From Geodermatophilus poikilotrophus (GTDB lineage Bacteria > Actinomycetota > Actinomycetes > Mycobacteriales > Geodermatophilaceae), in contig NZ_FOIE01000003.1 in the NCBI RefSeq assembly GCF_900111455.1, forward strand, positions 1 to 64,000: a DNA stretch of 64,000 nt. The letters are read 5' to 3'. Of this stretch, positions 7,453-54,594 are shown one piece after another. Positions within the stretch are counted from its first letter, which is position 1, and each line of letters opens with the position of its first letter. The notes below the pieces were generated by a model. The model had not been told where the DNA came from. It searched no databases and worked only from the letters and a program-made list of their open reading frames with translations. The position numbers and the translations under genes were made by a program.

Positions 7453-7515
7453 AGGAGGACCCCGTCCTCTCCACCCCCCGCAGGCTCGCGGCGGGACCGG
7501 AGGCGGGGCCGCGGG
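7453..7515 (+). repeat. stop-proximal hairpin repeat, copy 1 (after rnj)
   Basis: It begins immediately after the TGA of rnj with AAGGAGGACCCC. The left arm GGACCCCGTCCTC pairs with the right arm GAGGCGGGGCC, leaving mismatches, around the conserved apical CACC/CTCGCGG region. It lies in the orientation of the upstream gene. See the family finding. Confidence 0.7.
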
Positions 7516-7548
7516 CGGCGCCGGGGGACCACGGGGTCCCCGGCGCCG
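7516..7548. terminator. bidirectional terminator between rnj and the anti-sigma gene
   Basis: A 14-bp stem with one bulge (CGGCGCCGGGG against CCCCGGCGCCG) and a short loop sits between the convergent rnj and anti-sigma genes, 8 bp before the anti-sigma stop. A symmetric GC hairpin can stop transcripts from both sides. Confidence 0.75.
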
Positions 7549-7555
7549 CTGCTCG

Positions 7556-8221
7556 TCACAGCTCCGAGCTCGCCACCACGGTGCCGTCGGCGGCCACGAC
7601 CTGGAAACCGGTGGCGTCCTCCCGCAGCACCGAGGAGTTGAGGTTGCAGCGCAGCTCCGCGGGCCCCACGCCGAGGAACTCACCGGCGGGGACCGCGGTG
7701 CCGTCCTCGTCGGTGACCACGACGCGGTAGACCGCGCCGGCGGTGAACCCCTCACCGGTCAGCTTCACCTCCACGCCCCAGGTGTGCGGGACGACGTCGG
7801 CGGTGGCCCGGATGCCGCTGTCCGCGACCTGCACCGCGACCGGCTCGAGCGGCAGCGGGTTCGGCACCGGACGGGCCAGCCAGCCGATCCCGAAACCCGC
7901 CGCGGCCACACCCGCTGCGGCGGCCACGGCCAGCGCCCGGCGGGACCACGTCCGCCGCCGCCGCAGCGGCTCCTCGGCTGCGATCCGCGCGAGCACCGCC
8001 TCGCCGAGGCCGGCCGGGGGCGCCGGCTGCTCGTCGAGCCGGTCGGGGTCCACGCCCTCCAGCCGTGCGGCGAGCGGCGAGAGCTCGGCGAGCTCCGCTC
8101 GGCAGGAGGCGCACCCGTCGAGGTGGGCGCGGACGCCGGCCCGCTCCTCCGGCGTCCCGTGCCCGAGGGCGTACCAGCCCAGCTGCTCGCGCAGTCTCCG
8201 GTGCTCTCCCCGCTCGGTCAC
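7556..8221 (-). CDS. zinc-binding anti-sigma factor, membrane-anchored
   Basis: A 221-residue anti-sigma factor. The cytoplasmic N-terminal part carries the HxxxCxxC zinc anti-sigma motif (His33, Cys37, Cys40 in RAHLDGCASC), then one membrane helix (about 96-116), then an extracytoplasmic domain of about 100 residues with beta-like sequence. It should hold the adjacent ECF sigma factor inactive until an envelope or redox signal releases it. The GTG overlaps the sigma-factor stop by 4 bp (GTGA), so the two are co-translated. The outer domain resembles the RskA C-terminal type, but the signal is unknown. Confidence 0.88.
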   Translation of the reverse strand: MTERGEHRRLREQLGWYALGHGTPEERAGVRAHLDGCASCRAELAELSPLAARLEGVDPDRLDEQPAPPAGLGEAVLARIAAEEPLRRRRTWSRRALAVAAAAGVAAAGFGIGWLARPVPNPLPLEPVAVQVADSGIRATADVVPHTWGVEVKLTGEGFTAGAVYRVVVTDEDGTAVPAGEFLGVGPAELRCNLNSSVLREDATGFQVVAADGTVVASSEL

Positions 8222-8754
8222 GGTTCCACCCCCATCTCCTCCATCGCCAACCGCAGTGCCTTGAGGCCGTAGAACACCCGGCTCCGCAGCGTGCCGACCG
8301 GGATGCCGAGCTCCGCGGCCACCTCCGCGTGCGGCCGTCCGCGCAGATGGGTCTGCACGATCGCCGTCCGGTGGTCCTCGCCGATCCGGCGCAGCGCCTC
8401 CTCGACGACCCACTCGTCCACCAGCGCCTCGTCGACGCCGCCGCCTGCGGGGACGTCGTCGCCCGCGCCGTCGGTCAGCGTCCGCTGCCACGGCCGGACG
8501 GCGGACCGCCGCGCCTCGTCGACGACGACGTTGCGGGCGATGGCGAACAGCCAGGTCCGCAGGCTGGCCAGGCGCGGGTCGTAGGCGTCCGCGGAACGCC
8601 AGGCGCGCAGGAACACCTCCTGGACGACGTCCTGCGCGGCGCCGCCGTCACCCAGCTGGCGCAGCGCGAAGCGGTACAGCTCCGCGCCGTGCGCGGCGTA
8701 GGCCGCCCGGACGTCGAGCTCGCGGCCCTCCAGCCGCCCGTGCTCGCGCATCAT
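8218..8754 (-). CDS. ECF-family RNA polymerase sigma factor
   Basis: A 178-residue sigma-70 ECF protein with region 2 (about residues 22-85, including [11 protein letters not shown] and TWLFAIARN) and region 4 (118-170) with the helix-turn-helix [20 protein letters not shown]. It directs RNA polymerase to a stress regulon that cannot be named from here. The ATG at 8754 has a strong GGGAGGAG ribosome site 7 nt upstream, which decides against the longer open frame to 8919. It is transcribed with its anti-sigma factor and diverges from ftsK. A candidate self-activated promoter lies at 8779-8804. Confidence 0.93.
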
Positions 8755-8778
8755 CGGTGCTCCTCCCGTCGGGAGGTG

Positions 8779-8804
8779 TACGGCTGCCGGGGCGTCCCGG
8801 TTCA
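8779..8804 (-). promoter_or_regulatory. candidate ECF autoregulatory promoter
   Basis: On the minus strand TGAACC (8804-8799), a 16-nt spacer and CGTA (8782-8779) resemble the AAC-type -35 and CGT-type -10 of ECF promoters. The site is 25 nt before the sigma-factor start. ECF operons are often self-activated; this one is unproven. Confidence 0.4.
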
Positions 8805-8953
8805 CCGACCGGCCGAGCCGGCTCCCCATCGTGGCGCGGGCCCGCTCCATCGGCGTCCCGGCGCGGCTCTGCAGCCGAGACGTGCCGAACCGTTCCCGTG
8901 CGGCTTGGCATGCGGACACGCTGCGCCTGCCGTCGGGGCGGCCCGGCGGCCGT

Positions 8954-8959
8954 TACCGT
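8954..8959 (+). promoter_or_regulatory. -10 element TACCGT before ftsK
   Basis: TACCGT ends 6 nt before the ATG at 8966. With no Shine-Dalgarno sequence present, this supports the 8966 start and a leaderless ftsK mRNA. Confidence 0.55.
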
Positions 8960-8965
8960 CGACGC

Positions 8966-12987: not shown

Positions 12988-13646
12988 ACTCTCCGGTGGA
13001 CCCGGCCGCCACGCCGCCCCAGTCGGCGCGGGTAGTCAACCTGCCCAACGCGCTCACCCTGCTCCGGCTGGCCGTGGTGCCGGTGTTCGCCGCTCTGCTC
13101 CTCGCCGACGGCGGGATGGACGACGACCGGCGTTACTGGGCCACCCTCGTCTTCGCGCTCGCGATCATCACCGACCGCTACGACGGGATGATCGCCCGGC
13201 GCACCGGTCAGGTGACCGAGTTCGGCAAGCTCGCCGACCCGATCGCCGACAAGGCGCTGACCGGCACCGCCCTCATCGGCCTGTCGGTCCTCGCGCTGCT
13301 GCCCTGGTGGGTGACGCTGACCATCCTCGTCCGCGAGGTCGGCGTGACCCTGCTGCGCTTCTGGGTGATCCGCCACGGGGTGATCGCGGCCAGCCGCGGC
13401 GGCAAGGCCAAGACCGTCCTCCAGGCGCTGGCCATCGGGCTCTACACCCTCCCGTTCGACGGCCTGTTCGGCACGCTGCGGTGGTGGGTGATGGCCGCCG
13501 CCGTGGTGCTCACCGTGGTGACCGGCCTGGACTACGTCCACCGCGCGCTGGCGCTGCGCCGCACCAGCGCCCGCGCCATGCGCGCCGCGGCCGCTCGCCG
13601 TTCGGCGGGACCGGCCGGCGGGCCGCGGACCGACGCCGCCGCCTGA
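12984..13646 (+). CDS. pgsA: CDP-diacylglycerol-glycerol-3-phosphate 3-phosphatidyltransferase
   Basis: A CDP-alcohol phosphatidyltransferase (220 residues) predicted to make phosphatidylglycerophosphate for phosphatidylglycerol and cardiolipin. The family motif DxxDGxxARxxGxxTxxGxxxDxxxD is seen as [13 protein letters not shown] followed by [11 protein letters not shown]. Four to six membrane helices are predicted and the C-terminal tail is basic and alanine-rich. The start overlaps the rimO stop (ATGA). The order ftsK-pgsA-clgR matches mycobacteria, where this gene is called pgsA3, so the glycerophosphate acceptor is likely but not certain. Confidence 0.9.
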
Positions 13647-13757
13647 GCAAGGACCCCCTGCCCCCACCACTCGCACGCTCGCGGCGGGTCCCTGCAGGGG
13701 GCCGCCCGTCCTCCGCACCGCTCGCAGGCCCGCGGTGAGCCTCTGAACGGGGCCGAC
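13647..13757 (+). repeat. stop-proximal hairpin repeat, copy 2 (two units, after pgsA)
   Basis: Unit 1 (13647-13703) starts right after the pgsA stop: GGACCCCCTGC pairs with GCAGGGGGCC, leaving one bulged A, with CCCACC-type inner arms and an apical CTCGCACGCTCGCGG. Unit 2 (13704-13757) is a partial second copy with CACCGCTCGCAGGCCCGCGG. Both lie in the orientation of pgsA. Confidence 0.75.
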
Positions 13758-13852: not shown

Positions 13853-13956
13853 GCGCCCGGCACGGCCAGGTGACCGTCGGTGCCTCCGCGTACCGTGAAC
13901 GCACGGCCCCCTCCCCGGGTGCCGCCGCTTCCGCACAGGCAGGACAGGAGACGGCG

Positions 13957-14361
13957 ATGACGCTGCTGCGCACCCAGCTCGGGACGACCCTGCGCGGCCA
14001 CCGGCTGCGCCAGCGTCGGACGCTGCGCGACGTCTCCGGTGCCGCCCGGGTCAGCCTGGGCTACCTCTCCGAGGTCGAGCGGGGGCAGAAGGAGGCCTCC
14101 TCCGAGCTGCTCGCCTCGATCTGCGACGCCCTCGACGTCGAGCTCGCCGACCTGCTGGCCGAGGTCAGCCTGCGACTGCGCGGCGAGGACGGCCGCGTGC
14201 GCCCGCTCGTCCCCGCGGCCGACGCCGCCGGCGTCCCCACCGAGGAGGCGGCGGTCGCCACCTCCGGCGAGCAGCCGGTCGCCGAGCCCGCGCTGGCCCT
14301 GGTCGGTGCGCCGGGCCGCGCCGCCGGCCGCGCGTCCGGCGCGGTGTCGCTGGCGGCCTGA
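13957..14361 (+). CDS. clgR: ClgR-type helix-turn-helix transcriptional regulator
   Basis: A 134-residue XRE-family regulator. The helix-turn-helix spans about residues 9-65, with [20 protein letters not shown] and [19 protein letters not shown], the near-invariant ClgR recognition region. In relatives ClgR activates clp protease genes and, in mycobacteria, pspA. The C-terminal 60 residues are alanine-rich and poorly conserved. The ATG at 13957 has AGGAG 7 nt upstream. It follows pgsA as in mycobacteria, but pspA, its usual neighbour there, lies about 10 kb away at 24384. A repeat copy starts right at its stop. Confidence 0.9.
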
Positions 14362-15158: not shown

Positions 15159-16394
15159 GTGCGGTACCTCTTCCGGCCACCGGCCACCGACGGCGCGGGC
15201 CTGCTGAGCCTGCCCTTCCACCTACCCCTCGAGGAGTGGGACCCCGAGCTCCTGCTCGAGGTCCCGCAGCGCGGCATCTCGCGGCACGTCGTCCGGTTCA
15301 CCGCGCAGGGCGGGCACGTCTACGCCCTCAAGGAGATCCCGGAGCGGCTGGCCCGCCACGAGTACGCGCTGCTCGGCCGGTTCGAGGAGGAGGGGCTCCC
15401 GTCGGTCTCGGTGCTGGGCATCTGCGTCGACCGTCCCGACGACCAGGACGCCGTCCTGGTGACCCGCTACCTCGAGTACTCGATGTCCTACCGGTACCTG
15501 TTCTCCCGGCCCCACGGCGAGCACTCCGAGGAGCAGCTGCTCGACACCATGGTGGTGCTGCTCGTCCGGCTGCACCTGGCCGGCGTGTTCTGGGGCGACT
15601 GCTCGCTGTCGAACACCCTGTTCCGGCTCGACGCCGGCGCCTTCACCGCCCATCTCGTGGATGCCGAGACCTCCGAGAGGCACCCCCAGCTCAGCCCGGG
15701 GCAGCGGCGCTACGACGTCGACCTGGCACGGGAGCGGGTGGGCGCCGAGCTGCTGGACCTGCAGGCCGGCAGCCTCCTGCCGTCGCACGTGGACCCCATC
15801 GAGGTCGCCGACAGCCTGCCCGTGCGCTACGAGGCGCTGTGGGAGGAGGTGAACCGCGAGGAGGTCTTCGCGCTGGCCGAGCAGCGCCAGCGGGTGGCCG
15901 AGCGGCTGCAGCGGCTCAACGACCTGGGGTTCGACGTGGGCGAGATCGAGCTCGTCACCGATCCCGAGGGCGGCGCGCGGCTGCGGGTGGAGACCCGCGT
16001 CTCCGAGCCCGGGCAGAACCGCCGGGAGCTGTTCCGGCTGACCGGCCTGGAGGTGCAGGAGCGCCAGGCCCGCCGGCTGCTCAACGACCTGCGCGCCTAC
16101 CGCGCCACGCTGGAGCAGCAGACCGGCGCCCCGGCCCCGGAGACCGTCGCGGGCTACCGCTGGCTGGCCGAGTCCTACCAGCCCGTCGTCGAGGCCATCC
16201 CGCCCGACCTCGCCGGTCGGCTCGCACCGGCGGAGGTCTTCCACGAGATCCTCGAGCACCGCTGGTTCCTGTCCGAGAAGGCCGGCCACGACGTCGGGAC
16301 GACGAGGGCCGCGCGCTCCTACTTCGACACCGTGCTGCCCCGCACGCCCAAGGAGCTGACCACGCCCTCGGCCATCGTCGGCAGCCGCGATTGA
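15159..16394 (+). CDS. DUF4032 protein with kinase-like core
   Basis: A 411-residue actinobacterial DUF4032 protein. The middle resembles the catalytic part of lipopolysaccharide/small-molecule kinases: HVYALKEIPERLARHEYALL provides a candidate ATP-binding lysine near residue 55, and HLAGVFWGDCSLSNTLF (about 139-155) looks like an HxxxxxxGDxxxxN catalytic loop, followed by HLVDAETSE as a possible metal-binding segment. The C-terminal half (about 220-400) is the DUF4032 region proper. Substrate and role are unknown. The GTG at 15159 is chosen from the conserved MRYLF start. It precedes the sugar-import genes, but a repeat copy at its stop separates them. Confidence 0.85.
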   Translation: MRYLFRPPATDGAGLLSLPFHLPLEEWDPELLLEVPQRGISRHVVRFTAQGGHVYALKEIPERLARHEYALLGRFEEEGLPSVSVLGICVDRPDDQDAVLVTRYLEYSMSYRYLFSRPHGEHSEEQLLDTMVVLLVRLHLAGVFWGDCSLSNTLFRLDAGAFTAHLVDAETSERHPQLSPGQRRYDVDLARERVGAELLDLQAGSLLPSHVDPIEVADSLPVRYEALWEEVNREEVFALAEQRQRVAERLQRLNDLGFDVGEIELVTDPEGGARLRVETRVSEPGQNRRELFRLTGLEVQERQARRLLNDLRAYRATLEQQTGAPAPETVAGYRWLAESYQPVVEAIPPDLAGRLAPAEVFHEILEHRWFLSEKAGHDVGTTRAARSYFDTVLPRTPKELTTPSAIVGSRD

Positions 16395-16455
16395 GGAGGG
16401 ACCCCCATCGCCCCCACCGCTCGCAGACCCGCGGTGGGACCCCGCGAGGCGGCCG
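16395..16455 (+). repeat. stop-proximal hairpin repeat, copy 3 (after DUF4032 gene)
   Basis: It starts at the DUF4032 stop with GGAGGGACCCCC. The inner stem CCCACCG/CGGTGGG is perfect around CTCGCAGACC, while the outer arms are weaker than in other copies. Confidence 0.65.
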
Positions 16456-16467
16456 CGGAGGCGGTGT

Positions 16468-17910: not shown

Positions 17911-18869
17911 GCACCACCACGCTGCCACCCACCGAGAAGACCCAACCGGTCGCGGCTCCGCGCGGGACCATCAGCGACCGCTCCCGCGCCGAACGGAAGC
18001 TCGGCTGGCTGCTGGCCGGCCCGGCGTTCGTGGTCATGCTGCTGGTCACCGCCTACCCGATCCTGCAGGCGCTCTGGTACTCGCTGTTCAACTACCGCCT
18101 GACCGACCCGGAGAACCGGTCCTTCCGGGGGCTGGGCAACTACGCGGTGATCCTGTCCGACGGTCTCTGGTGGCAGGCGCTGCTCGTCACGCTGTTCATC
18201 ACCGTGGTGACCGTCGTCGTCGAGCTGGTCCTGGGCTTCGCGCTGGCGCTGGTGATGGCCAAGGCGCTCAGTTCCATCCGCCCCGTCGTCCGGGCGGCGA
18301 TCCTCATCCCGTACGCGGTCATCACGGTCGTCTCGGCCTTCGCGTGGGCGTTCGCCTTCCGGATCGAGACCGGCTTCGTGAACAGCTGGTTCGCCTGGCT
18401 CCCCGGGATCACGGCGGACACCGACTGGTTCGGCGGCCAGTGGACCTCGCTCCTCGTGATCTGCCTGGCGGAGATCTGGAAGACCACGCCCTTCATCTCG
18501 CTGCTGATCCTCGCCGGCCTCGCGCAGGTCCCCGACGTGCTGCAGGAGGCGGCCAAGGTCGACGGCGCCACCTGGTGGCAGCGGATGTGGCGGGTGACCA
18601 TCCCGAACATGAAGGCGGCGATCATGGTCGCCCTGCTCTTCCGCACGCTCGACGCGTTCCGCATCTTCGACTCGATCTACATCATGACGGCCGGCGCCAA
18701 CGGCACGGAGTCGGTCTCCTTCCTGGCCTACCGGCAGACGATCGCGCGAGTGGAGATCGGCCTCGGCTCCGCGGTCTCCGTCCTGCTGTTCCTGAGCGTC
18801 GTGCTGATCGCGTTCATCTTCATCAAGGGCTTCCGGATCGACCTGGCCCAGGCGAGGGGGGAAGGCTGA
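17907..18869 (+). CDS. sugar ABC transporter permease (MalF/SugA type)
   Basis: A 320-residue inner-membrane permease with six predicted helices. The cytoplasmic EAA loop that docks on the ATPase is visible as EAAKVDGATWWQRMWRVTIP near residues 212-231. The first helix starts after a polar N terminus of about 35 residues. It overlaps the binding-protein gene by 4 bp and its stop overlaps the next permease start by 1 bp (TGATG), so the operon is translationally coupled. Confidence 0.93.
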   Translation: MSTTTLPPTEKTQPVAAPRGTISDRSRAERKLGWLLAGPAFVVMLLVTAYPILQALWYSLFNYRLTDPENRSFRGLGNYAVILSDGLWWQALLVTLFITVVTVVVELVLGFALALVMAKALSSIRPVVRAAILIPYAVITVVSAFAWAFAFRIETGFVNSWFAWLPGITADTDWFGGQWTSLLVICLAEIWKTTPFISLLILAGLAQVPDVLQEAAKVDGATWWQRMWRVTIPNMKAAIMVALLFRTLDAFRIFDSIYIMTAGANGTESVSFLAYRQTIARVEIGLGSAVSVLLFLSVVLIAFIFIKGFRIDLAQARGEG

Positions 18870-23222: not shown

Positions 23223-24235
23223 CGGCGGGCCGCTTCCAGTTCCTCGCGGGTCGGCGGGTCGGCGCCCTCGCGGGTGCAGTTCAGCGCCGCGACCAGGGCG
23301 GCGTCGTCGATGATCGGCAGCAGCTGCTCGTCGGGCAGCTCCTCCAGCGCGGCCCGGGTGGTGATCCCCGCGTCCAGCAGCCCGGCGAACAGCCCCGCCG
23401 CCAGCGAGTCACCGGCGCCGACCGTGTCGGCCACGGTCACCCGCGGGGGCTCGCGGCGCAGCAGGTCACGGCCGGGCCGGGCGATGCGCAACGGGGCCCC
23501 GCCGTCGGTGAGCAGCACCAGGGCGGCGCCGCGGTCGGCCCAGCGCAGGGCCGTCCCGTCGAGGTCGCCGGCGCTGTCGGGCTCGAGCCAGGCGAGGTCC
23601 TCGGCGCTGACCTTGACGATGTCGGCCCGGAACAGCAGCCGGTCGAGGCGGGTGCGCACCGATGCGGCGGAGTTGCCCAGCGCCGTCCCGACCGGGCCGT
23701 CGGCCAGCATCGGGCGGATGTTGGGGTCGACGCTGACCAGGGCACGGCCGTCGGCGGCCACCTGCTCGACCAGCCGGGCGATCGCCTCGCAGCCGGGCGG
23801 GGTCCAGCTGGAGATCGAACCGACGTGCAGGATCGCCGTCCCGGACGGCAGGACGGCGGCGAGCTCCTCGTCGCTCCACTGCCAGTCGGCGGCGCCCTGC
23901 ACGTGGAACCCGTAGTCCGGGGAGCCGTCGGGGCCCAGGCCCACCACCGCGAGGCTGACCGGCTCGGTGGCCGGCACGAGCCCGGCGAGGTCCACGCCGG
24001 CCAGCTCCACGTGCCGCCGCAGCCCCACGGCCAGCGGGCCGGTGCCCAGCCGGGCGAGCAGCCGCACCGGGACGCCGAGACGGCCCGCGGCCACCGCGAC
24101 GTTGAGGGCGTTGCCGCCGGGCCGGGCGACGTAGTGCGGTGCTGTGCCGTGCGGCCCGGCGCCGGCCGCGACGTCGGGCAGCATGTCGACGACGAGTTCC
24201 CCGAGGACGCTCAGCACCGAGCGATCGCTGGTCAC
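23219..24235 (-). CDS. PfkB-family sugar kinase (fructokinase-like)
   Basis: A ribokinase/PfkB-family kinase (338 residues) that phosphorylates a sugar with ATP. The N-terminal [15 protein letters not shown] signature (substrate lid region) and the C-terminal [18 protein letters not shown] signature with catalytic Asp276 are intact, as is SVDPNIRP. The neighbourhood of an alpha-glucoside importer and GH13 enzyme suggests fructokinase in sucrose use, but the substrate is inferred. The GTG at 24235 is set by a TAGGGT hexamer 7 nt upstream; the frame is open further upstream without coding character. Confidence 0.9.
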
Positions 24236-24242
24236 GCCCGCG

Positions 24243-24248
24243 ACCCTA
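24243..24248 (-). promoter_or_regulatory. -10 element TAGGGT before the sugar kinase
   Basis: TAGGGT on the minus strand ends 7 nt before the GTG at 24235, predicting a leaderless kinase-GNAT transcript. Confidence 0.6.
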
Positions 24249-24383
24249 GCGACCGGAACGCCTCCGTACCCGGGCGCTGGCTCACCCGCGGGCGCACCTG
24301 GGACGATGACGGGGACGACGATCGCTGCGGCACGCCGGACGGGTAGGCCCTGGCGGACGACCGCTACCTGCGCAGGAGGACAG

Positions 24384-25217
24384 ATGCCGAACCCGTTCGT
24401 GAAGTTGTGGAAGTACCTCACGGCCTCGGCCAACGCGAAGATCGACGAGAAGGCCGACCCGAAGATCCAGATCCAGCAGGCCATCGAGGCCGAGCAGCAG
24501 CGGCACCAGGCGCTGGCCAACCAGGCGGCCGCCGTGCTGGGCAACCAGCGTCAGCTGGAGATGCGGCTCAACCGGCAGCTCGGCGAGGTGGAGAAGCTGC
24601 AGGCCTCTGCGCGTCAGGCGCTGGTGCTGGCCGACCAGACCCGCGCCGGCGGGGACGCGGCCAAGGCGGCGGAGTACGAGAACGCCGCGCAGGCCTTCGC
24701 CACCCAGCTGGTCGCCGCCGAGCAGGCGATGGAGGACCTCAAGCGCAGCCACGACGAGGCGCTGCAGGCCGCCGAGCAGGCGCGCGGCGCGGTCGAGCAG
24801 AGCCGGATGCGGCTGCAGACGACCCTGGCCGAGCGCACCAAGCTGATGAGCCAGCTCGAGCAGGCCAAGATGCAGGAGCACGTGGCGGCCTCGCTCAAGC
24901 AGGTCAACGAGCTCTCCGCGCCGGGCAACACCCCGAGCCTGGGCGAGGTGCGGGACAAGATCGAAGCCCGCTACGCGAACGCCCTGGGCCAGGCCGAGCT
25001 GGCGCAGACGTCGGTCGAGGGCCGGATGCTCGAGGTGCAGAAGGCGACCCTCGACGTCGCCGGCGCCTCGCGGCTGGATCAGATCCGCGCCTCGATGGGG
25101 CAGCCGGCGATCACCGGCCAGGACGCGGTCCCGGCCCTGGAGGAGGGGACGCCGTCGGTGCCGACGTCCACCGCCCAGCCGGCGGCACAGTCGGCCGACC
25201 GCCCCGACCAGCAGTAG
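24384..25217 (+). CDS. pspA: PspA/IM30 (ESCRT-III-like) envelope-stress protein
   Basis: A PspA-family protein (277 residues), a membrane-binding coiled-coil protein that protects the envelope. The N terminus [20 protein letters not shown] is the amphipathic, membrane-binding helix. Long alpha-helical coiled-coil sequence rich in Ala, Gln and Glu follows from about 25 to 225, and the C-terminal 40 residues are disordered. The ATG at 24384 has CAGGAGGA 3 nt upstream. In mycobacteria pspA directly follows clgR, which activates it; here the two are 10 kb apart. Repeat elements follow its stop. Confidence 0.93.
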
Positions 25218-25219
25218 GA

Positions 25220-25370
25220 GGAGGACCCCGCGTCCCCCCACCGCTGGCGGGCTCCTGGTGGGGGGACGCGGGGCCGTTCCGACGCGTTCCCAGGCTCGCG
25301 GCGGGGCCCTGCAGGGAGCCGCGTCCTCCCCACCCTGCGCGAGCTCGGGGTGGGACCCGGAGCGGGGGTG
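25220..25370 (+). repeat. stop-proximal hairpin repeat, copy 4 (two units, after pspA)
   Basis: Unit 1 has the best stem of the family: CCCCGCGTCCCCCCACC (25226-25242) pairs perfectly over 17 bp with 25257-25273 around a 14-nt loop, again with GGACCCC against GGGGCC leaving a bulged A. Unit 2 (about 25290-25370) is a degenerate second copy containing GGCCCTGCAGGGAGCC and CCCCACC/GGTGGGACCC. Confidence 0.8.
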
Positions 25371-25376
25371 ACCGCT

Positions 25377-25413: not shown

Positions 25414-26268
25414 TCAGGAGGCGCTGGGGAGCGGCGGCGGGTGGTCGGGCTCGCCGGTGCGGGCCGCCGGGTCGACGGGGGAGCAGGCGGCCTGGCAGCG
25501 CGGGCACCAGTAGGTGATCCGCTCCTGCAGGTCCGGGCCCTGGTCGCCGCGCAGGATCGGCGTGCCGCAGCGGTAGCAGGGGCGGTCCTTGCGGCCGTAG
25601 ACCCAGTGGTCGCGGCCGCGGCGCAGGTCGCCGGTGGTGCTCTGCTCCGGGCGTTCGCGGTTGGCCAGCATCAGCGACCGGGTCCGCTCGACCAGCCCTG
25701 GCAGGTCCTTGACGTCGGCGACCCGCATCCACGGGTGCACGCCGCAGACGAACAGGCCCTCGACCTTGTAGAGGTTGCCGGGACCGCACAGGTTGCGCTG
25801 GTCGAGGATGGCCACGCCGATCTGCTCGTCGGGGTGCGCCCGCAGTCGGCGGAGCGCCTCCTCGAGGTCCCAGTCCGGGCCGAGGACGTCGGGGCCGAGG
25901 TGGCCGAACAGCTGGTCCTCGTGCTCGGTGCGGACCATGGCCACGTCGTGCAGCCGGTAGCCGACGCACTCCCACTCGTCGGTGGCCAGGATGGCGCGGA
26001 TGGAGAAGGCCGGACCGCCGCGCCACCGGGTGCCGTGCCGGTAGATGTGCCAGCTGCCGTCCATCCGGTAGTGCGTGCGCAGCGTCCAGCCGTCGGTGAA
26101 CCGGGTGAGCATGTGCTTGCCGCGCGGCACCACCGCGGAGACGGTTCGACCGGCGAGGTCGGTGGCGGCCAGCTGCGGCACGCGCAGCTCACCGCGGCGC
26201 AGGGTGGCGCCGCCGAGCGCGGTGTCCATCCGCTTCGCCGCCAGCCAGACGGTGTCTCCCTCGGGCAC
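25414..26268 (-). CDS. nei: Fpg/Nei-family DNA glycosylase/AP lyase (Nei2 type)
   Basis: A 284-residue bifunctional glycosylase removing oxidised bases. The catalytic N terminus PEGDTV (Pro2, Glu3) has the Nei form rather than the Fpg form PELPEV; Lys51 in GKHMLTRF is conserved, the helix-two-turn-helix contains LDQRNLCGPGNLYK, and the C-terminal zinc finger has Cys231, 234, 255 and 258. In M. tuberculosis nei and lhr are adjacent; here lhr is the next minus-strand gene but one plus-strand gene lies between. The start codon is GTG, with GACACT 7 nt upstream as a possible leaderless -10. Confidence 0.94.
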   Translation of the reverse strand: MPEGDTVWLAAKRMDTALGGATLRRGELRVPQLAATDLAGRTVSAVVPRGKHMLTRFTDGWTLRTHYRMDGSWHIYRHGTRWRGGPAFSIRAILATDEWECVGYRLHDVAMVRTEHEDQLFGHLGPDVLGPDWDLEEALRRLRAHPDEQIGVAILDQRNLCGPGNLYKVEGLFVCGVHPWMRVADVKDLPGLVERTRSLMLANRERPEQSTTGDLRRGRDHWVYGRKDRPCYRCGTPILRGDQGPDLQERITYWCPRCQAACSPVDPAARTGEPDHPPPLPSAS

Positions 26269-26285
26269 GCGCTCCAGTGTCCCCC

Positions 26286-26339: not shown

Positions 26340-26414
26340 TGCTGCTGCTCGGACGCGGCGCAGGTCACCTCCGGCGGCGGGAAGTCGCGCGTCCGCCGCG
26401 GCGCTGAGCCTCCC

Positions 26415-36751: not shown

Positions 36752-38512
36752 TCAGGTCGGGTCGGGGTCCCTGCTGCCCTGCCGCTGACCTCCGCTGAGG
36801 CCGACCTCGCTGACGCCGGCGTAGGGCTCGTGCCGCTTGCCGACGTGCTTCTCCTGCTCCAGCCGCTCGATCAGGTGCGGGTAGTGCGCCTCGAAGGCCG
36901 GCCGCTCGGAGCGGATCTTCGGGATCTCGGTGAAGTTGTGCCGCGGCGGCGGGGACGACGTCGCCCACTCCAGCGAGTTGCCGTGACCCCAGGGGTCGTC
37001 CCGCACCGCCAGTGGCCCGTGGCGCCAAGACCGGATCACGTTGAAGAGGAAGGGGATGATGGAGGCGCCGAGGATGAACGAGAAGATCGTCGACACCGTG
37101 TTCAGCATGGTGAAGCCGTCGCTGGCCAGGTAGTTGGCGTAGCGACGCGGCATGCCCTCACCGCCGAGCCAGTGCTGCACCAGGAACGTGCCGTGGAACC
37201 CGATGAAGGTCATCCAGAACTGGAGCTTGCCGAGACGCTCGTCGAGCATCCGGCCGCACATCTTGGGGAACCAGAAGTAGACGCCGGCGTAGGCGGCGAA
37301 CACCACGGTCCCGAAGACCACGTAGTGGAAGTGCGCCACGACGAAGTAGCTGTCGTTGACGTGCCAGTCCAGCGGCGGCGAGGCCAGCAGCACGCCGGTC
37401 AGACCACCGAGCAGGAAGGTGACCATGAAGCCGATCGCGAACAGCATCGGCGTCTCGAAGGTCAGCTGACCCCGCCACATGCTGCCGATCCAGTTGAAGA
37501 ACTTGATCCCGGTCGGCACGGCGATCAGGTAGGTCAGGAACGCGAAGAACGGCAGCAGCACCGCGCCGGTGGCGTACATGTGGTGCGCCCACACCGTCAC
37601 CGACAGGGCGCCGATGGCGATGGTCGCGAAGACCATGCCCTTGTAGCCGAACAGCGGCTTGCGGCTGAACACCGGGATGATCTCGGTGACGATGCCGAAG
37701 AACGGCAGCGCGATGATGTAGACCTCGGGGTGCCCGAAGAACCAGAACAGGTGCTGCCACAGCATCGACCCCCCGTTCTCCTCCGAGTACACCAACGCGC
37801 CGATCTGCCGGTCCGCCAGGAGGGCGAACAGCGCCGCGGTGAGGATCGGGAACGCGAAGAGCACCAGCAGGCTGGTCACCAGGGTGTTCCAGCAGAAGAT
37901 CGGCATCCGGAACAGCGTCATGCCCGGCGCCCGCAGGCAGACCATGGTGGTCGCGAAGTTGACCGCACCGAGGATCGTGCCCAGGCCGGACACCGCCAGG
38001 CCGGCGATCCACAGGTCCGGGCCGGCGCCGGGACTGTGCGCGACGTCGGACAGCGGGGTGTAGGCGTACCAGCCGAAGTCGGCGGCACCGCCCGGGGTGA
38101 GGAAGCCCGACACCGCGAGGGTGCTGCCGAAGAGGAACAGCCAGTACGAGAACGAGTTCAGCCGCGGGAACGCGACGTCGGGCGCGCCGATCTGCAGCGG
38201 CATGATCAGGTTGCCGAACGCGAAGAACAGCGGCGTCGCGAAGAACAGCAGCATGATCGTGCCGTGCATGGTGACCAGCTGGTTGTACTGCTCCGGCGAG
38301 AGGAACTGCAGGGCCGGCCGGGCCAGCTCCCCACGCATGAGCATCGCCATCAGGCCGCCGATGATGAACCACACGAACGACGTGACCAGGTACATCAGAC
38401 CGATGGTCTTGTGGTCGGTGGTCCGCAGGAAGTTCGACAGCCGCGAGCCCTTCTCCGGTGCAGGAGCGGTGCTCGATCGCGTGATGATGGGGTGCGGGGC
38501 CAGAGCGGTCAT
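36752..38512 (-). CDS. ctaD: cytochrome c oxidase subunit I
   Basis: The catalytic subunit (586 residues) of an aa3-type oxidase, reducing oxygen and pumping protons. Twelve membrane helices are predicted. Heme and copper ligands are visible: the CuB His-Tyr pair in FFGHPEVYI, the two histidines of WAHHMY and the heme ligands in [10 protein letters not shown], plus [10 protein letters not shown] for the low-spin heme. The last 60 residues are polar. The ATG at 38512 (MTALAPHP) is preferred over the upstream open frame. No other oxidase subunit is in the window, so this is a solitary copy placed between recX and the glu operon. Confidence 0.95.
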
Positions 38513-44070: not shown

Positions 44071-45654
44071 TCAGCGGCGGTTGGCGCTCTTCTCGGCCTC
44101 GGCCAGCCACTCCCGGCGGGTGGCCAGGTTCGCCCGGGCCTCCTCGATCCGGCGGCCGTCGCCGGCGGCCTCGGCCTTGGCGAGCTGCTCCTCGGCCTTG
44201 GTCACCGCCTGGCGCATCGAGGTGACCATCGGGTTCTCCGGGGCCACCCGCGGGCGGGAGGTGTCGACGGCGCCGCGGATGCGCTGCTCGACGGCCTGCA
44301 TCCGGTCCTCCAGCTGACGCATGGCGCCGCGCGGGACGTGGCCGATGGCGTCGTAGCGCTCCTGCAGCTTGCGCAGCACGTTCTGGGCTCCGCGCAGGTC
44401 GCTGGACGGGTCGAGCTTCTCCGCCTCGGCGAGGATCTCCTCCTTGGCCTGCTGGTTCGCAAGCTGCTCGGCGTTGCGGGCCTTGTCGGACTCGGCGCGG
44501 GCGCTGAAGAAGACGTCCTGCGCGGCGCGGAACTGCTTCCACAGGTCGTCGTCGCCGTCGCGACCGGTGCGCGGCACGGCCTTCCACCGGTCCATCAGCG
44601 AGCGCATGGCGGCGCTCGTGGGGCCCCACTCGGTCGACGTGGAGAGCCGCTGGGCCTCGGTGATGAGCTCCTGCTTGGCTGCGCGGGCCTCGCCGCGCTG
44701 GGCGTCGAGGGCGGCGAAGTGCGCGCCCCGGCGGCGGCCGAAGGCGTCCCGGGCGGCGGCGAAGCGGCTCCACAGCGCCTCGTCGGTCTTGCGGTCGATG
44801 CCGCGGATGGTCTTCCACTCCTCGACGATGGCCTTGAGCCGGTCGCCGGCGGCCTTCCACGAGGTGGACTCGGCGGCGATCTGCTCGGCCTCGGCGGCCA
44901 GCGCCTCCTTGCGGGCGACCTGCGCGGCCCGTGCGGCGGCCTTCTCCGCCCGGGACTCGGCGGCCGCCGAGTCCGCGGTCTCCACCATCGCCCGGGCGCG
45001 CGCAGCCAGCCCGTCGAGGTCGCCGACGGCGGTGGCGGTGGGGATGGACTCGGCGAGCGCCTGCGCCTTGGCCTTGATCTCGCTGGGGTTGCCGGTGTGC
45101 GCCCGCAGCCGCGCCTCGAGCAGGGCGACCTCGGTGGCCAGGTCGTCGTAGCGGCGGGCGTAGTGGGCCAGCCCCGAGGCCGGGTCGCCCGCCTGCCACG
45201 AGCCGACCGCGCGCTCGCCCTCGGCGGTGCGCACGTAGACCGTCCCGTCCTCGTCCACCCGGCCCCACTGGGCGGGGTCGGACGCCGGGGCCGCCTCGGC
45301 GGGCGGGTGCGGGACGGGGTGCTGCGGTGCGGGCGTCGCCGGAGCGGCGGTCTCAGGCGTTGCGGTCTCAGGCGTGGCGCCATCAAGCGTGGCGCTCTCG
45401 GCAGTGGCGGTCTCGGGACCGGGGGCCTCGGGTGCGGGCGTCCCCGGAGCGGAGGCCTCGGACGCGGGCGGCTCCGGCGCGGCCTGCGACGGGGCCTGCT
45501 CGGTGGCGGCCCCCGTGGCCGGGTCGGCGAGGGCGGCGTCGCCGGGGCTGGGCGCCGCCGCCGTCCCCGCCTCGGGGGCGACCGCCTCGGATCCGGCCGT
45601 CTCGGGCTGGGGCAGCTGCTGCGAGGGGTTTCCGGCGTTCTCCGTGCTCGACAC
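44071..45654 (-). CDS. DUF349 domain protein
   Basis: A 527-residue protein. The first 145 residues are disordered and dominated by Ala, Pro, Thr and Glu with short PETA-like repeats. Then come a segment of about 40 residues (WGRVDEDGTVYVRTAEGER) and four or five DUF349 helical repeats, each about 70 residues, such as ALWSRFAAARDAFGRRR and DLWKQFRAAQDVFFSARAES. The C-terminal 100 residues are coiled coil. Function unknown; distant relatives are linked to RNA or DNA binding. The same neighbourhood (miaB, miaA, dapF) holds in mycobacteria. The GTG at 45654 starts 40 bp from the divergent extradiol-like gene. Confidence 0.9.
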   Translation of the reverse strand: MSSTENAGNPSQQLPQPETAGSEAVAPEAGTAAAPSPGDAALADPATGAATEQAPSQAAPEPPASEASAPGTPAPEAPGPETATAESATLDGATPETATPETAAPATPAPQHPVPHPPAEAAPASDPAQWGRVDEDGTVYVRTAEGERAVGSWQAGDPASGLAHYARRYDDLATEVALLEARLRAHTGNPSEIKAKAQALAESIPTATAVGDLDGLAARARAMVETADSAAAESRAEKAAARAAQVARKEALAAEAEQIAAESTSWKAAGDRLKAIVEEWKTIRGIDRKTDEALWSRFAAARDAFGRRRGAHFAALDAQRGEARAAKQELITEAQRLSTSTEWGPTSAAMRSLMDRWKAVPRTGRDGDDDLWKQFRAAQDVFFSARAESDKARNAEQLANQQAKEEILAEAEKLDPSSDLRGAQNVLRKLQERYDAIGHVPRGAMRQLEDRMQAVEQRIRGAVDTSRPRVAPENPMVTSMRQAVTKAEEQLAKAEAAGDGRRIEEARANLATRREWLAEAEKSANRR

Positions 45655-45694
45655 GTGTCGGAGTGTCCCACGACGCATCCGGGAGACTGCTGCC

Positions 45695-46408
45695 GTGAGC
45701 TCAGCCCCGGCCGCTCGGTCCCGCGCGACCCCGTCGGCCGTCGCCTTCTGCCCCTGCCCACCGCTGCTGGTGCCGGCCGTGGCCGGGCGGGCGGCGGCGG
45801 ACACCGCGACCCTGCGCGCCGCGTGCGCGACCGCGGTCGACGCGGTGCTGGCCACCGGGCCGGAGGTGGTCGTGGTGGTCGGCGGAGAGGCGGCCTGCGG
45901 GCGCTTCGGGGACGGTGACGGCGGAGACCTCCGCGGTCTCGGCGTCGACCTGGAGGTGCCCTTCGCAGGACGGGCCCGGTCCGGTGGGCGCCGCATGCCG
46001 CTGGCCCACACGCTCGGCGCGTGGCTGCTCGACGGGGCCGGGTACGCCGGCGTCCGCCTTGGTGTCGGCCCCGACGACCTCGCCGGCGCGCTGGACGGGC
46101 TCCCCGGCCCGGTCGCCGTCCTCGCCATGGGGGACGGCTCGGCGCGGCGCTCGCTCAAGGCGCCCGGCCACCTCGACGAGGCCGCCGAGCCCTTCGACGA
46201 CGCCGTCGCCACCGCGCTCGCCGCAGGCGACCCCGGCGCCCTGGCCGCGCTCGACCCCGCGGAGGGCGCCCGGCTGCTCGCCGCCGGCGTGCCCACCTGG
46301 CGGGCGGTCGGGGCCGCGCTGACCGGCCGGGAGGTCACCGGCCGGCTGCACGCGCACGAGGCGCCCTTCGGCGTCGGTTACCTGGTGGCCGACTGGAGCG
46401 TGCGGTGA
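45695..46408 (+). CDS. class III extradiol dioxygenase-like protein
   Basis: A 237-residue protein resembling the LigB/class III extradiol ring-cleavage dioxygenase fold found between DUF349/miaB and miaA in actinobacteria. Visible are VAFCPCPPLLVPAVAG at the N terminus, EVVVVVGGEAACG and LAMGDGSARRSLKAPGHLDE, the last with a conserved Gly-Asp and His as in the family. The usual paired metal histidines are only partly evident, so enzymatic activity is doubtful. The GTG at 45695 is chosen from the conserved start. Its stop overlaps miaA by 4 bp, implying co-translation. Confidence 0.8.
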   Translation: MSSAPAARSRATPSAVAFCPCPPLLVPAVAGRAAADTATLRAACATAVDAVLATGPEVVVVVGGEAACGRFGDGDGGDLRGLGVDLEVPFAGRARSGGRRMPLAHTLGAWLLDGAGYAGVRLGVGPDDLAGALDGLPGPVAVLAMGDGSARRSLKAPGHLDEAAEPFDDAVATALAAGDPGALAALDPAEGARLLAAGVPTWRAVGAALTGREVTGRLHAHEAPFGVGYLVADWSVR

Positions 46409-48282: not shown

Positions 48283-48284
48283 GT

Positions 48285-48494
48285 TCAGGTCTTCGGCGTC
48301 TCGGTGTCCTCGGGCGCCTCGGGCATGAGTGACTCGCCGGCGGTGCCCGGGCTTCCGGAGGGGCGGCCGCGGCCGCTGTCCTGGTCGGGGCCGCCGCCGA
48401 GTGGGTTGCGCGGCGGGTCGAGGCCCACGGGGTCCCGGCCGGGGTCGTCGAGCTCCTCGTTCGCCCCCGCCGCGCTGCTGCCCGTCTCGCTCAT
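48285..48494 (-). CDS. small disordered hypothetical protein
   Basis: A 69-residue hydrophilic protein rich in Gly, Pro, Asp and Ser (for example GRDPVGLDPPRNPLGGGPDQ), with no membrane segment or recognisable domain, probably unstructured. It is supported as real by a strong GAGGAGG ribosome site 6 nt before the ATG and by a hairpin repeat placed at its stop. It is divergent from hflX and convergent with dapF. No function is proposed. Confidence 0.65.
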   Translation of the reverse strand: MSETGSSAAGANEELDDPGRDPVGLDPPRNPLGGGPDQDSGRGRPSGSPGTAGESLMPEAPEDTETPKT

Positions 48495-51954: not shown

Positions 51955-51974
51955 CGCCGCGCCGGCGGCCCGTC

Positions 51975-52030
51975 GGCCCCGTCCCCGAGCCGCCCCGAGC
52001 GTGCGAGGGGTGGGGAGTACGGGGCCTTCG
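51975..52030 (-). repeat. stop-proximal hairpin repeat, copy 9 (after lexA)
   Basis: In minus orientation, abutting the lexA stop: GGCCCCGTACTCCCCACCCC at the 5' side pairs through GGCCCCGT with ACGGGGCC; loop CTCGCACGCTCGGGG. It also closes the gap to the convergent secreted-protein gene. Confidence 0.75.
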
Positions 52031-52822
52031 TCAGACCCGGCGCAGCACCGTGACGACGCGGCCCAGCACGGTCGCGTCGTCACCGGGGATGGGCTCATAC
52101 GCCGGGTTGTGCGGCAGCAGCCACACGTGCCCGTCGCGCCGCTTGTAGGTCTTCACCGTCGCCTCACCGTCGATCATGGCGGCGACGATCTCGCCGTTCT
52201 CCGCGGTCGGCTGCTGCCGCACGACGACCCAGTCGCCGTCGCAGATGGCTGCCTCGACCATCGAGTCACCCGTGACCTTGAGCATGAACAGCGTCCCCTC
52301 GCCGACCAGTTCGCGTGGGAGCGGGAAGACGTCCTCCACGGCCTGCTCGGCCAGCACCGGACCACCCGCGGCGATCCGGCCGACGAGCGGCACGTAGGTG
52401 GGCGCGGGGGTCTCCTCGGCGCCGACCGGGGCGACCCCCGTGGGCGCCGAGGCGCCGGCGCTGTCACCGGGCAGGCGCACGTCGAGCGCGCGGGGCCGGT
52501 TCGGGTCGCGGCGCAGCCAGCCCTTCTTCTGCAGCACGCTGAGCTGGTGGGCCACCGAGGAGGCCGACGACAGCCCGACGGCCTCGCCGATCTCACGCAC
52601 CGAGGGCGGGTAGCCGCGCCGCTCGATGGAGTCACGGATCACCTCGAGGACCCGCCGCTGCCGCTGGGTGAGCCCGTCGCCGGCCTCGCCGCGGTCGGGG
52701 AAGGTGCGCACGGACGCCGCCTCGGCCGGCTCCGGCGCGCCGGCCCGGCTCCCGGACGTGCGCCGCGACGAGCTGCCGCCGCCCCGGACCCCGCTGCCCG
52801 ACGTCCCGCTCGTGCCCGCCAC
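52031..52822 (-). CDS. lexA: SOS repressor LexA
   Basis: LexA (263 residues) represses damage genes and cleaves itself when RecA is active. A disordered N-terminal 50 residues precede the winged helix-turn-helix ([38 protein letters not shown]). The cleavage Ala-Gly lies in RIAAGG, the catalytic serine is Ser187 in GDSMVEAAI, and the catalytic lysine is Lys224 in TVKTYK. The GTG at 52822 has a GGGGGAG ribosome site. It is divergent from the LysM gene with two SOS boxes between, so it should autoregulate. Confidence 0.96.
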
Positions 52823-52991
52823 GTCTCCCCCTCGCCGGCCGTGTCGCCACGGCCCTCGTGTCCTGCGCCCGCCGGAGGCGCCGCGGCCGGGCGTGGCCCT
52901 CGACGGAACGCGCCCGGCCCGGTCCCGCCGGCGCCCCGAGGCGACGGCGGACGGGTGCTGCTCCGGACGGTAGCGCCTCGGCGCCGGGACT

Positions 52992-53007
52992 TCAAACGTG
53001 TGTTCGA
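52992..53007. promoter_or_regulatory. SOS box, lexA-proximal
   Basis: TCAAACGTGTGTTCGA differs from the perfect TCGAAC-N4-GTTCGA site at one position. It lies 170 bp upstream of the lexA start and 66 bp from the second box. Confidence 0.75.
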
Positions 53008-53072
53008 AACGGCCGGGAGGTGTCGGGTCGACCCCGTCGGCTGGATGCGGTAGACATCGCACCGTCATCCGA

Positions 53073-53088
53073 TCGAACACTTGTTCGA
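53073..53088. promoter_or_regulatory. SOS box, LysM-gene-proximal (perfect)
   Basis: TCGAACACTTGTTCGA is a perfect 16-bp SOS palindrome, 29 bp before the LysM gene start. It is the best LexA site in the window. Confidence 0.92.
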
Positions 53089-53116
53089 TCCGGCCCGGTG
53101 GCGAGGAGGAGTGGTC

Positions 53117-53758
53117 ATGGCGAGCGTGCGGCAGGCCGTGCTGGAGTTCGACGCGGCGGTGCGGGTCCCGTGGCGGCCGTTGCTCGGGTCGGGGACCGGC
53201 GGCGGTGCCCCGGCGTCCGGGCCGGCGACGGCCGGGTTGCCCGGTGCGGCAGGCCAGGCGACGCGGTCCGTCCTGCCGGGCTCCGGTCCCCGGGTGGCCG
53301 GGCACCTGCGGCCGGTCCCCGACTGCCCTGTCGGGCGCGAGCCGCGCGGTGCCGGTCCGGTCACCGAGGCACCCCGCACCCGTCGTGACCCGGCGCGCCC
53401 GGGTGGTCGGCCGCTGCGGTCCGCACCGGCCGCAGGCGCCGTCCGCGGCGGGTGCGCACCGGCGCCGGCCTCCGTGCGGCTGACCCGCCGCGGGCGCCGG
53501 TTCGTCGCCGCGCTCGCGCTGGGTGGCGCCGTCGCCCTCGGGGCGTCGATCGCCCCGCTGGCCGACGGGGCCGACGGAGGGCTGCACCTGGCCGGCGAGA
53601 GCAGCGTAGAGGTCCAGCCGGGCGACACGGTCTGGTCGATCGCGGGGGAGGTCGCCGGGGACGGCCAGGACGTGCGCGTCGTGGTCGACGCCATCGAGGA
53701 GCTCAACGACCTCGAGGGCTCCGTCGTCGTGCCGGGGCAGGTGCTCGAGCTGCCCTGA
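53117..53758 (+). CDS. LysM protein, candidate SOS-induced division inhibitor
   Basis: A 213-residue protein with a long Gly/Pro/Ala-rich cytoplasmic N terminus, one membrane helix (about 128-148) and an outer LysM domain (163-212, [16 protein letters not shown] and [11 protein letters not shown]) that should bind peptidoglycan. Position and layout match YneA of Bacillus and Rv2719c of M. tuberculosis, both divergent from or next to lexA and induced by SOS to pause division. The ATG at 53117 has GAGGAGG 6 nt upstream, and a perfect SOS box lies 29 bp before it. The inhibitor role is inferred from context. Confidence 0.85.
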
Positions 53759-53875
53759 CGGGTCCGTGCCGGGCTCGTGCGGCATCGCCCCAGGTCGAGG
53801 AGCGACAAGTCGCGGCGCCGATGTTCGTCAACCCGTCGTGCCGAGTCGTTGACGCTCTGTGGCCAGCCGCGGTTC

Positions 53876-53881
53876 TACGGT
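53876..53881 (+). promoter_or_regulatory. -10 element TACGGT before the gene at 53889
   Basis: TACGGT ends 7 nt before the GTG at 53889, indicating a leaderless start rather than the ATG at 53898. A TTGACG at 53849 is too far upstream (21-nt spacer) to count as its -35 with confidence. Confidence 0.5.
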
Positions 53882-53888
53882 CGGAGTC

Positions 53889-54533
53889 GTGTCAGCGATG
53901 CCAGGCAGCCGGGCCGCCGTCTTCACGCAGCAGTCGCAGAGCGTCGAGGTGCACCTCGAGGGCGCCTGGTGGCCGGGGTCGCTGCTGGGCTGGCGGCACG
54001 ACGGCGGAGGTGCCTGCGAGGTCTGGGTGCGGGTGACCGTCGACGGCGCGGACCGCGAGACCTGGACCGACCTCGCCGGGGTCCGGCTGCCGGAGGTCTA
54101 CCCGGCTCCGGCGTTGGTCCCGGACGCCGGTGCCGACCCCTTCGCGGGTCCGGCGGAGGAGCTGCTCCCGGGGGCCGCAGCCGCCCCGCTGCTGTCCCTG
54201 AGCGAGGCCGCGGCCCGTGAGCAGCGGGTGGCCGGGGTCCTCCCCGCGCCGGCTCCGGTGCGCCGGCGCCGTCGTCACGGCGGCGACGTGACCGCCGAGC
54301 TGCCCGCCGTCGACGGCGGCGGCCAGCCGGTCGGCCGCCACCGGGCCTCGGCCGTGGCCGGCCGCCACCGCGCGGCCGACGCGCCCGCGGAGGCGCCGCA
54401 CGCGGAGCCCACCGACGCGACGGTGCTCATGCCGCGCGCGACGGAGGCCGACTGCCTCACCCGGCCCATGCGGCTCGGTGACCGCGCGCCCCGTCCCCGC
54501 CTGGCGCGCCCCGACGCGGCCCTCCGCGCCTGA
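53889..54533 (+). CDS. hypothetical protein
   Basis: An unrecognised 214-residue protein. The N-terminal 70 residues look like a small beta domain (VFTQQSQSVEVHLEGAWWPG, VWVRVTVDGADRETWTDLAG), possibly an SH3-like barrel. The rest is disordered, alternating Ala/Pro and Arg/His-rich stretches with a C terminus ending DRAPRPRLARPDAALRA. No membrane helix or signal peptide. The GTG at 53889 is supported by TACGGT 7 nt upstream. It lies between the LysM gene and nrdR and is followed by a hairpin repeat. No function is proposed. Confidence 0.7.
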   Translation: MSAMPGSRAAVFTQQSQSVEVHLEGAWWPGSLLGWRHDGGGACEVWVRVTVDGADRETWTDLAGVRLPEVYPAPALVPDAGADPFAGPAEELLPGAAAAPLLSLSEAAAREQRVAGVLPAPAPVRRRRRHGGDVTAELPAVDGGGQPVGRHRASAVAGRHRAADAPAEAPHAEPTDATVLMPRATEADCLTRPMRLGDRAPRPRLARPDAALRA

Positions 54534-54594
54534 GGAAGGACCCGCTGCCCTCCACCGCTCGCCGGCTCGGGGCCGGGCCCTGCACGTGGGCCGC
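54534..54594 (+). repeat. stop-proximal hairpin repeat, copy 10
   Basis: It starts at the stop of the hypothetical gene with GGAAGGACCCGCTGCC and contains CCACCGCTCGCCGGCTCGGGG and GGGCCCTGCACGTGGGCC. Pairing of the outer arms is poorer than in other copies, so it is a diverged member. Confidence 0.6.

Follow-up and report, generated by a model that had tools for sequence, protein, structure and literature searches.

Hairpin copies in the window

The first 64,000 nt of contig NZ_FOIE01000003.1 of Geodermatophilus poikilotrophus (the window) carry a family of short dispersed hairpins, most of them placed directly after the stop codon of a gene. The hairpin unit is about 57-61 nt long. From its purine-rich foot it runs through a GGA whose A is bulged, a lower stem of about 8 bp and an inner stem to a conserved loop. 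When copies are aligned on GGACC, the sequence of the lower stem is variable, while the loop reads CTCGCAGGCTCG or a close variant.

A covariance model of a 17-pair hairpin (R2) was built from 54 copies, four of them from the window. Its scan of the window returned 13 copies at E < 1e-4, and a short copy at 14362 lies outside the model, with no R2 match at E up to 1. The initial annotation of this DNA had listed twelve places and proposed such a model search; the described kind of sequence was present at all twelve, and 11 of the 13 R2 matches were already on that list. The two additional copies (13706-13750 and 25313-25371) adjoin the copies at 13646 and 25218. The copies in the window, with open reading frames abbreviated as ORFs and domains assigned by Pfam, are as follows.

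7453-7512 (+): copy of the GTCC/GGAC arm type after the stop of the RNase J gene (TGA 7450-7452; RNase J by Pfam); R2 61 bits, E 6.9e-11
13646-13705 (+): copy of the CTGC/GCAG arm type after the stop of a CDP-alcohol phosphatidyltransferase gene (TGA 13644-13646); R2 69.3 bits
13706-13750 (+): second, adjacent copy, partial (model positions 11-55); R2 43.1 bits
14362-14383 (+): short form, GGGAGGACCCGTCCTCCCACCC, following a helix-turn-helix gene at its stop (13870-14361; domain by Pfam), recognised from the sequence
16394-16456 (+): copy after the stop of a DUF4032 gene (TGA 16392-16394); R2 41.8 bits
25218-25277 (+): almost perfect palindrome following the TAG (25215-25217) that ends ORF 24144-25217; R2 37.2 bits, fold of -50.9 kcal/mol for 65 nt
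25313-25371 (+): second copy, within a degenerate cluster; R2 42.6 bits
26284-26344 (-): orphan without a stop codon, located upstream of a gene for a Fapy/H2TH DNA glycosylase (25414-26268, -; Pfam); R2 57.4 bits
27011-27061 (+): copy of reduced length, following a gene with an ABM domain (stop 27009-27011; Pfam); R2 35.2 bits
36669-36728 (-): inner member of a nest whose outer copy is degenerate, following the COX1 stop (36752-36754, -; COX1 by Pfam); R2 43.2 bits
44011-44071 (-): copy after the stop of a DUF349 gene (44071-46338, -); R2 74.4 bits
48225-48285 (-): copy after the stop of a short called ORF (48285-48494, -) without a Pfam match; R2 82.2 bits, the best in the window
51973-52031 (-): copy after the lexA stop (gene called at 52031-53785, -; LexA and Peptidase_S24 domains); R2 50.4 bits
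54533-54593 (+): copy after the stop of ORF 53859-54533, without a Pfam match; R2 42.8 bits

At the COX1 site the inner copy begins about 24 nt past the stop, and by eye the 5' arm of the outer copy lies between the two. Many of the window copies fold stably. An Rfam search of the window returned only 5S and LSU rRNA, and no Rfam family matched the hairpin at gathering score. The RNase J of the window is 98% identical to that of Geodermatophilus africanus DSM 45422. Short repeats of another kind, with a 15-nt period, lie within the DUF349 gene (45300-45483).

Abundance and distribution

In 864 kb of the genome (the window and 40 further stretches), 122 copies were found, of which 113 were anchored and 11 lay inside a called gene. 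A 400-kb grid sample of the same genome contained 53 copies, which extrapolates to about 640 per genome. The exact 12-nt loop sequence (12-mer) occurs 125 times genome-wide, against twice for its reversed control; a genome search with a further model, R1, gave at least 150 scored matches, a figure that is not a copy count. The element was present at about 1 in 11 called gene ends of the sample (56/624), and all gene-end counts are approximate because the genes come from a simple in-house caller. Copy density was uneven: six of the twenty 20-kb stretches had none and one had eight. The copy-free stretches were L009, L010, L012, L018, L020 and L021. L009 is also low in GC (67.7%) and is perhaps acquired DNA.

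Among 112 genomes of the family Geodermatophilaceae, the loop 12-mer was present at least once in 103 and in all 12 of the 12 genera. By hand count it was more frequent than its own reversed control in 98 of the 112, in several by few occurrences only. In a second genus, the same hairpin was seen by eye at all twenty 12-mer loci read. Spread beyond the family was considered for two genomes of the class that are rich in loop 12-mers (G250 and G196) and was rejected, this hairpin being absent in the 21 loci read. In addition, a profile search of 1.118 Mb covering 69 named actinobacterial loci outside the family gave no match at E ≤ 1e-3, and a covariance model gave nothing below E 0.14 on the same loci. 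G250, which belongs to another family of the same order, contains at L167, L171, L175, L179 and L185 a different high-copy palindrome that shares the 12-mer (GCTTCGAGGCTCGCAGGCTCGCACCTCAG) and is apparently another dispersed repeat family.

Position relative to stop codons

For the stop analysis, top-level copies were defined by a pattern rule as those with no other copy's start within the preceding 48 nt (n = 70). Another 43 copies with a preceding 5' start were set apart, and 9 of the 122, near an end or partial, were not used. TGA, TAG or TAA was found at -8 to -2 from GGACC in 59 of the 70 top-level copies, compared with 2/70 and 4/70 at two control offsets; since the difference from the offset control (59/70 against 2/70) is so large, chance placement is excluded. 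The initial annotation had placed the copies within 0-30 nt of stops, reading in the direction of the gene, and had called for a genome-wide count of position and orientation. Adjacency and sense orientation both hold in the sampled DNA of the same genome, where placement is non-random, while the spacing proved tighter, with the stop 2-8 nt before GGACC.

An open frame of at least 60 codons was closed by 56 of the 59 stops (median 331 codons), whereas random stop triplets close a median open frame of 40.5 codons and reach 60 in 39% of cases. The commonest form, in 33 of the 70 copies, was TGA, 4 nt and GGACC (TGA at -7), and all 33 followed a frame of at least 60 codons; TAG at -8 and TAG at -5 came next, with six copies each. 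A stop triplet was also present at 17 of the 43 copies set apart. In the second genus, a stop was in place at 13 of 17 scored loci, nine of them after a frame of at least 60 codons, and three unscored loci also showed a stop by eye. The copy at L156:18265-18325 (+) starts where a tRNA-Trp gene of the opposite strand (18191-18265, -) has its 5' end, a gene boundary without a stop codon.

Among top-level copies of the TGA type, 42 of 43 followed a frame of at least 60 codons. The DNA outside called genes contains 2179 TGA triplets that are not stops, compared with 537 TGA stops, so that an insertion blind to frame would land on stops 20% of the time. If insertions are tolerated only in the first 30 nt after stops, however, the expected share rises to 75% (42/43 observed, p = 8e-5), and by hand arithmetic to about 85% when frames that are open by chance are included, which makes the excess modest. 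A DNA-level preference for TGA or TAG combined with purifying selection was therefore retained as the simplest account of the stop placement.

Presence and absence in relatives and nesting of copies

The RNase J stop was compared by eye in 26 Geodermatophilus genomes, of which four carry clear copies, five carry remnants and 17 have none. G041 has the copy, whereas G042 and G047 are without it, though they are 96% identical to it over 1.5 kb of the gene; no recognisable element was seen at this stop in G048, G062, G051, G056 and G061. At all eight window stop sites compared by eye, at least one relative has no copy, and the stop codon keeps its aligned place wherever the flanks are comparable. 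At the phosphatidyltransferase stop, element-like sequence, partly degenerate or nested, was seen by eye in all seven near relatives and no element was found in G042, G043, G046 and G047, and the copy of G063 sits between the TGA and a flank common to G045, which has none. The DUF4032 stop has no element in G056, G062 and G051 and a nested inner copy in G040, and the DUF349 stop has another arm type in G048 and G040 and no element in G051 and G062. The orphan at 26284-26344 is common to G048 and G056 and was not seen in G040, G061 and G062.

Copies also lie within the loops of other copies. At three sites that could be set against un-nested orthologues, about 10-14 loop bases had been lost; in the lexA nest of G040, for example, CCCCTCG, CACGCTCGGG, GCGGG had turned into CCCCTCG, inner copy, CGGG. 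Three-deep nests were seen by eye at L158:9695 and L157:6114. Presence and absence at orthologous sites and nested copies, two marks of a mobile element, were thus both observed. The suggestion in the initial annotation of a REP-like (repetitive extragenic palindromic) element adapted to its site is supported, the family being dispersed, adjacent to stops, oriented, polymorphic between species and nested.

Two further arrangements were noted. At L158:5154-5240 (+), three element starts follow one another; two are identical 5' halves of 28 nt that break off near CTCG, which looks as if each new copy had entered at the loop. At L024:15566-15715 (-), the CTGC-type 3' half and an extension form repeats like those of a variable-number tandem repeat, with a unit of about 46 nt.

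Covariation of the arms

Alignment A1 contained 93 of the 122 copies after filters on length, score and ends, and A2 the 54 of these with exactly 61 nt, which were picked by length and not by pairing. RNAalifold on a MAFFT alignment of the 93 copies misaligned arms of unequal length, so structure-anchored counting and the 54-copy set were used instead. In A2, 91.7% of the cells were paired, compared with 81.1% after shuffling, and the covariation score was 0.283, compared with 0.113 for shuffled and 0.050-0.071 for slid alignments. In the structure-anchored count of 174 distinct copies, the 158 with the best pairing had 100 different arm pairs; its shuffle test left out the 16 copies with fewer than five paired lower-stem positions, and the register was chosen to maximise pairing. 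The initial annotation had claimed that pairing is kept while the sequence changes and had named a lack of significant covariation as one outcome that would count against it. Covariation was strong on both counts: 10 of the 17 pairs of A2 vary in both partners, cells with a double change numbering 90 compared with 30.1 after shuffling, and Watson-Crick pairs made up 88.9% in the 158 copies against 60.7% after shuffling.

Selection on the sense-strand RNA should accept G.U and reject A.C. The two mismatches numbered 44 and 38, respectively, in the structure-anchored count and 13 and 21 in the 54-copy set, and one stem position was A.C in 34 of the 54 copies. Within the lower stem, the inner four positions gave a G.U to A.C ratio of 33:10 and the outer four the reverse, 11:28. 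The test is weak, since the two halves deviate in opposite directions, and an overall RNA-strand signature is absent. The further claim of selection on RNA structure is thus unsupported overall (44:38 and 13:21, with A.C in 34/54), and the picture is mixed (33:10 and 11:28). Near-perfect palindromes were found at 25218-25277 of the window, at L026:9936-9999 and in an inner copy of G048, which suggests hairpin-templated correction at the DNA level.

Sequence downstream of the element

The 15 nt after GGCC contained 12.2% T in 61 copies, compared with 12.8% in the sampled DNA, so no T tail is present. A stem of at least 12 bp was found beyond the element at 7 of 47 gene ends and at 31 of 246 ends without an element (p = 0.64); one of the seven (L160:15508) itself consists of repeat sequence. 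Stems of at least 10 bp were commoner with the element (15/47 beyond it, 43/246 at ends without it). At element-free gene ends, stems of at least 12 bp (31/253) start 3-87 nt past the stop, unlike the fixed 4 nt of the element. Copies stood at the stop of 19 of 236 convergent and 32 of 324 codirectional gene ends, indicating no convergent preference; in another 45 convergent and 24 codirectional cases a copy lay elsewhere in the gap.

Since downstream stems are equally frequent with the element (7/47 and 31/246), the element appears to have been inserted between the stop and the terminator and not to have replaced the terminator. An unusual terminator, as the initial annotation had proposed, does not agree with these values, and an intrinsic terminator was dropped as the main explanation, there being no T tail and strong hairpins persisting beyond the element. 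In the window, a separate 12-bp stem at about 7514-7550, after the RNase J element, is likely an ordinary terminator.

Proposed origin and spread of the hairpin family

The copies probably represent a REP-like, non-autonomous family of mobile or recently mobile DNA hairpins of Geodermatophilaceae that spreads to gene stops and persists there. Spreading would take place at the DNA level, by hairpins inserted immediately 3' of TGA or TAG, and copies would survive mainly at gene stops, where the position spares both the protein and the downstream terminator. When a stop codon occupies the A site, the mRNA about 4 nt past it is near the mRNA entry of the ribosome. The base of the hairpin, 4 nt past the stop, would therefore come near the mouth of the ribosomal mRNA channel, and by analogy with stop-proximal REPs of Escherichia coli the element may slow termination, mildly lower expression or shield the 3' end. 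The mobilising activity would be something other than a recognisable Y1 (RAYT) transposase, a candidate being the opening of loops and repair of extruded hairpins.

Several observations weigh against this explanation. Of the top-level copies, 11 of 70 have no stop in the tested range, although at some of these a stop lies slightly further away or the copy is a member of an inverted nest. In the second genus, the other 4 of the 13 stops are all TAG after 12-33 open codons, and some TAGs may therefore be part of the element itself. Inner copies at lexA were compared in four relatives; those of G048 and G040 are nearly identical and those of G062 and G049 different, so that the G048/G040 nest may reflect shared descent instead of separate events. 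The intergenic DNA of relatives diverges fast, and no base-exact empty site beside a stop was obtained from which a target duplication could be read. The 33:10 excess of G.U in the inner part of the lower stem would be compatible with selection on RNA. The enzyme search covered Y1_Tnp, RVT_1 and IS110: the Y1/RAYT transposase (PF01797) was found in 0 of 112 family genomes and in 5 of 14 control genomes, and no RVT_1 reverse transcriptase and no IS110 were found in the genome. All three were accordingly set aside as mobilisers, Y1 family-wide and the other two for this genome. A light search, with half models from 15 copies, gave no autonomous partner; 13 of 16 lone 5' halves were outer nest parts or tandem starts by eye, and ten lone 3' halves were found.

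An explanation without transposition is ectopic recombination or repair, in which a nuclease, perhaps of the SbcCD kind, would cut extruded hairpins at the loop and the break would be closed by copying in a neighbour, or other copies would convert the hairpins; this would spread arms and nest copies. It agrees with the replacement of about 10-14 loop nt by nested copies, with the near-perfect palindromes at 25218-25277 and L026:9936-9999, which fit hairpin-templated correction, with differing arm types at one orthologous site and with the Ku encoded in the genome. By itself, however, it does not account for how a stop codon first acquires a copy or why the spacing to the stop is fixed, and we consider it unlikely. 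A cis-acting RNA device, that is, an intrinsic terminator without a U tail or a 3'-end stabiliser kept by selection on RNA pairing, would account for sense orientation and stop adjacency, strong covariation, the stable folds of many window copies and the 33:10 ratio in the inner half of the lower stem. Such a device is rather improbable, given that G.U does not exceed A.C overall, T after the hairpin is at background (12.2% and 12.8%), stems of at least 12 bp beyond the element are as frequent as without it (7/47 and 31/246) and, where they occur at other ends, start 3-87 nt after stops without a fixed 4 nt, convergent ends are not preferred (19/236 and 32/324), and presence among sister species is patchy.

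Two proposals involve translation. A hairpin guided by translation termination, which reads in-frame stops via the ribosome or mRNA, uses loops as landing sites and requires no known transposase or reverse transcriptase, seems very unlikely. Equally little credit can be given to an insertion step whose target is a terminating ribosome, or mRNA cleaved at its stop codon, in place of a DNA triplet: the 42 of 43 TGA-type copies that follow a frame of at least 60 codons exceed the 20% expected for all TGA and the 75% expected within 30 nt (p = 8e-5), but the excess is modest against about 85% when the 30-nt limit is joined with chance frames, the genome has no RVT_1 reverse transcriptase, and nested copies enter loops without any stop.

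Comparison with known repeats

No description of this repeat was found in the literature searched, most subscription papers being outside its reach. The main text of PMC3733652 contains no mention of Actinobacteria, Geodermatophil or Frankia, and neither of two terms sought was found in PMC5009743. REPs with GTAG or CGTC tags, as described by Di Nocera et al. 2013 (PMC3733652), are likewise high-copy imperfect palindromes beside gene 3' ends, and the Geodermatophilus hairpin is itself a high-copy, mostly extragenic imperfect palindrome. The termini of GTAG REPs often supply the TAG stop of the flanking ORF according to that paper; a GTAG foot, however, was observed at -6 to -3 in only 9 of 107 copies and anywhere in -8 to -1 in 11. 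Those REPs are given there as 20-40 nt long, whereas the element is about 57-61 nt, has a conserved loop and variable arms, is usually joined as TGA plus 4 nt, and occurs in a family with no Y1/RAYT in 112 genomes.

In E. coli, REPs less than 16 nt from the stop down-regulate translation, and 446 of 4072 REPs, or 260 of 496 in an earlier study, lie within 15 nt of the stop (PMC12306157). The element resembles these ribosome-stalling REPs in forming a sense-side hairpin within 15 nt of the stop. With a stop within 8 nt in 59 of 70 top-level copies, against the 446/4072 within 15 nt given there, it keeps closer to the stop codon than the E. coli REPs do by these figures. Mycobacterial interspersed repetitive units (MIRUs), as described in PMC12548453 and PMC2734929, integrate at start codons and contain an ORF whose coupling has a spacing of -4 nt. 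They are also short, apparently mobile actinobacterial repeats placed exactly at a translation signal and sometimes in tandem, but MIRUs so described stand at start codons and the Geodermatophilus copies after stop codons, and only 1 of 50 codirectional gene ends with a gap below 10 nt, where coupled genes would lie, carries a copy. Intrinsic terminators share the GC-rich hairpin downstream of genes and differ in that the element is without a T tract and leaves the other hairpins of the gene in place.

Covarying arms within a repeat family need not signal RNA-level selection. With element-free orthologues available in sister species, the genes that carry the hairpin form a ready-made panel on which the consequences of a hairpin 4 nt past the stop could be measured. 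The nesting in loops, together with the absence of a Y1 transposase, also poses the problem of how REP-like elements spread when RAYTs are missing. Taken together, the stop-plus-4 rule, the conserved loop with variable arms, the nesting in loops and the lack of a Y1 transposase form the set of features by which the Geodermatophilus hairpin differs from both GTAG REPs and MIRUs.

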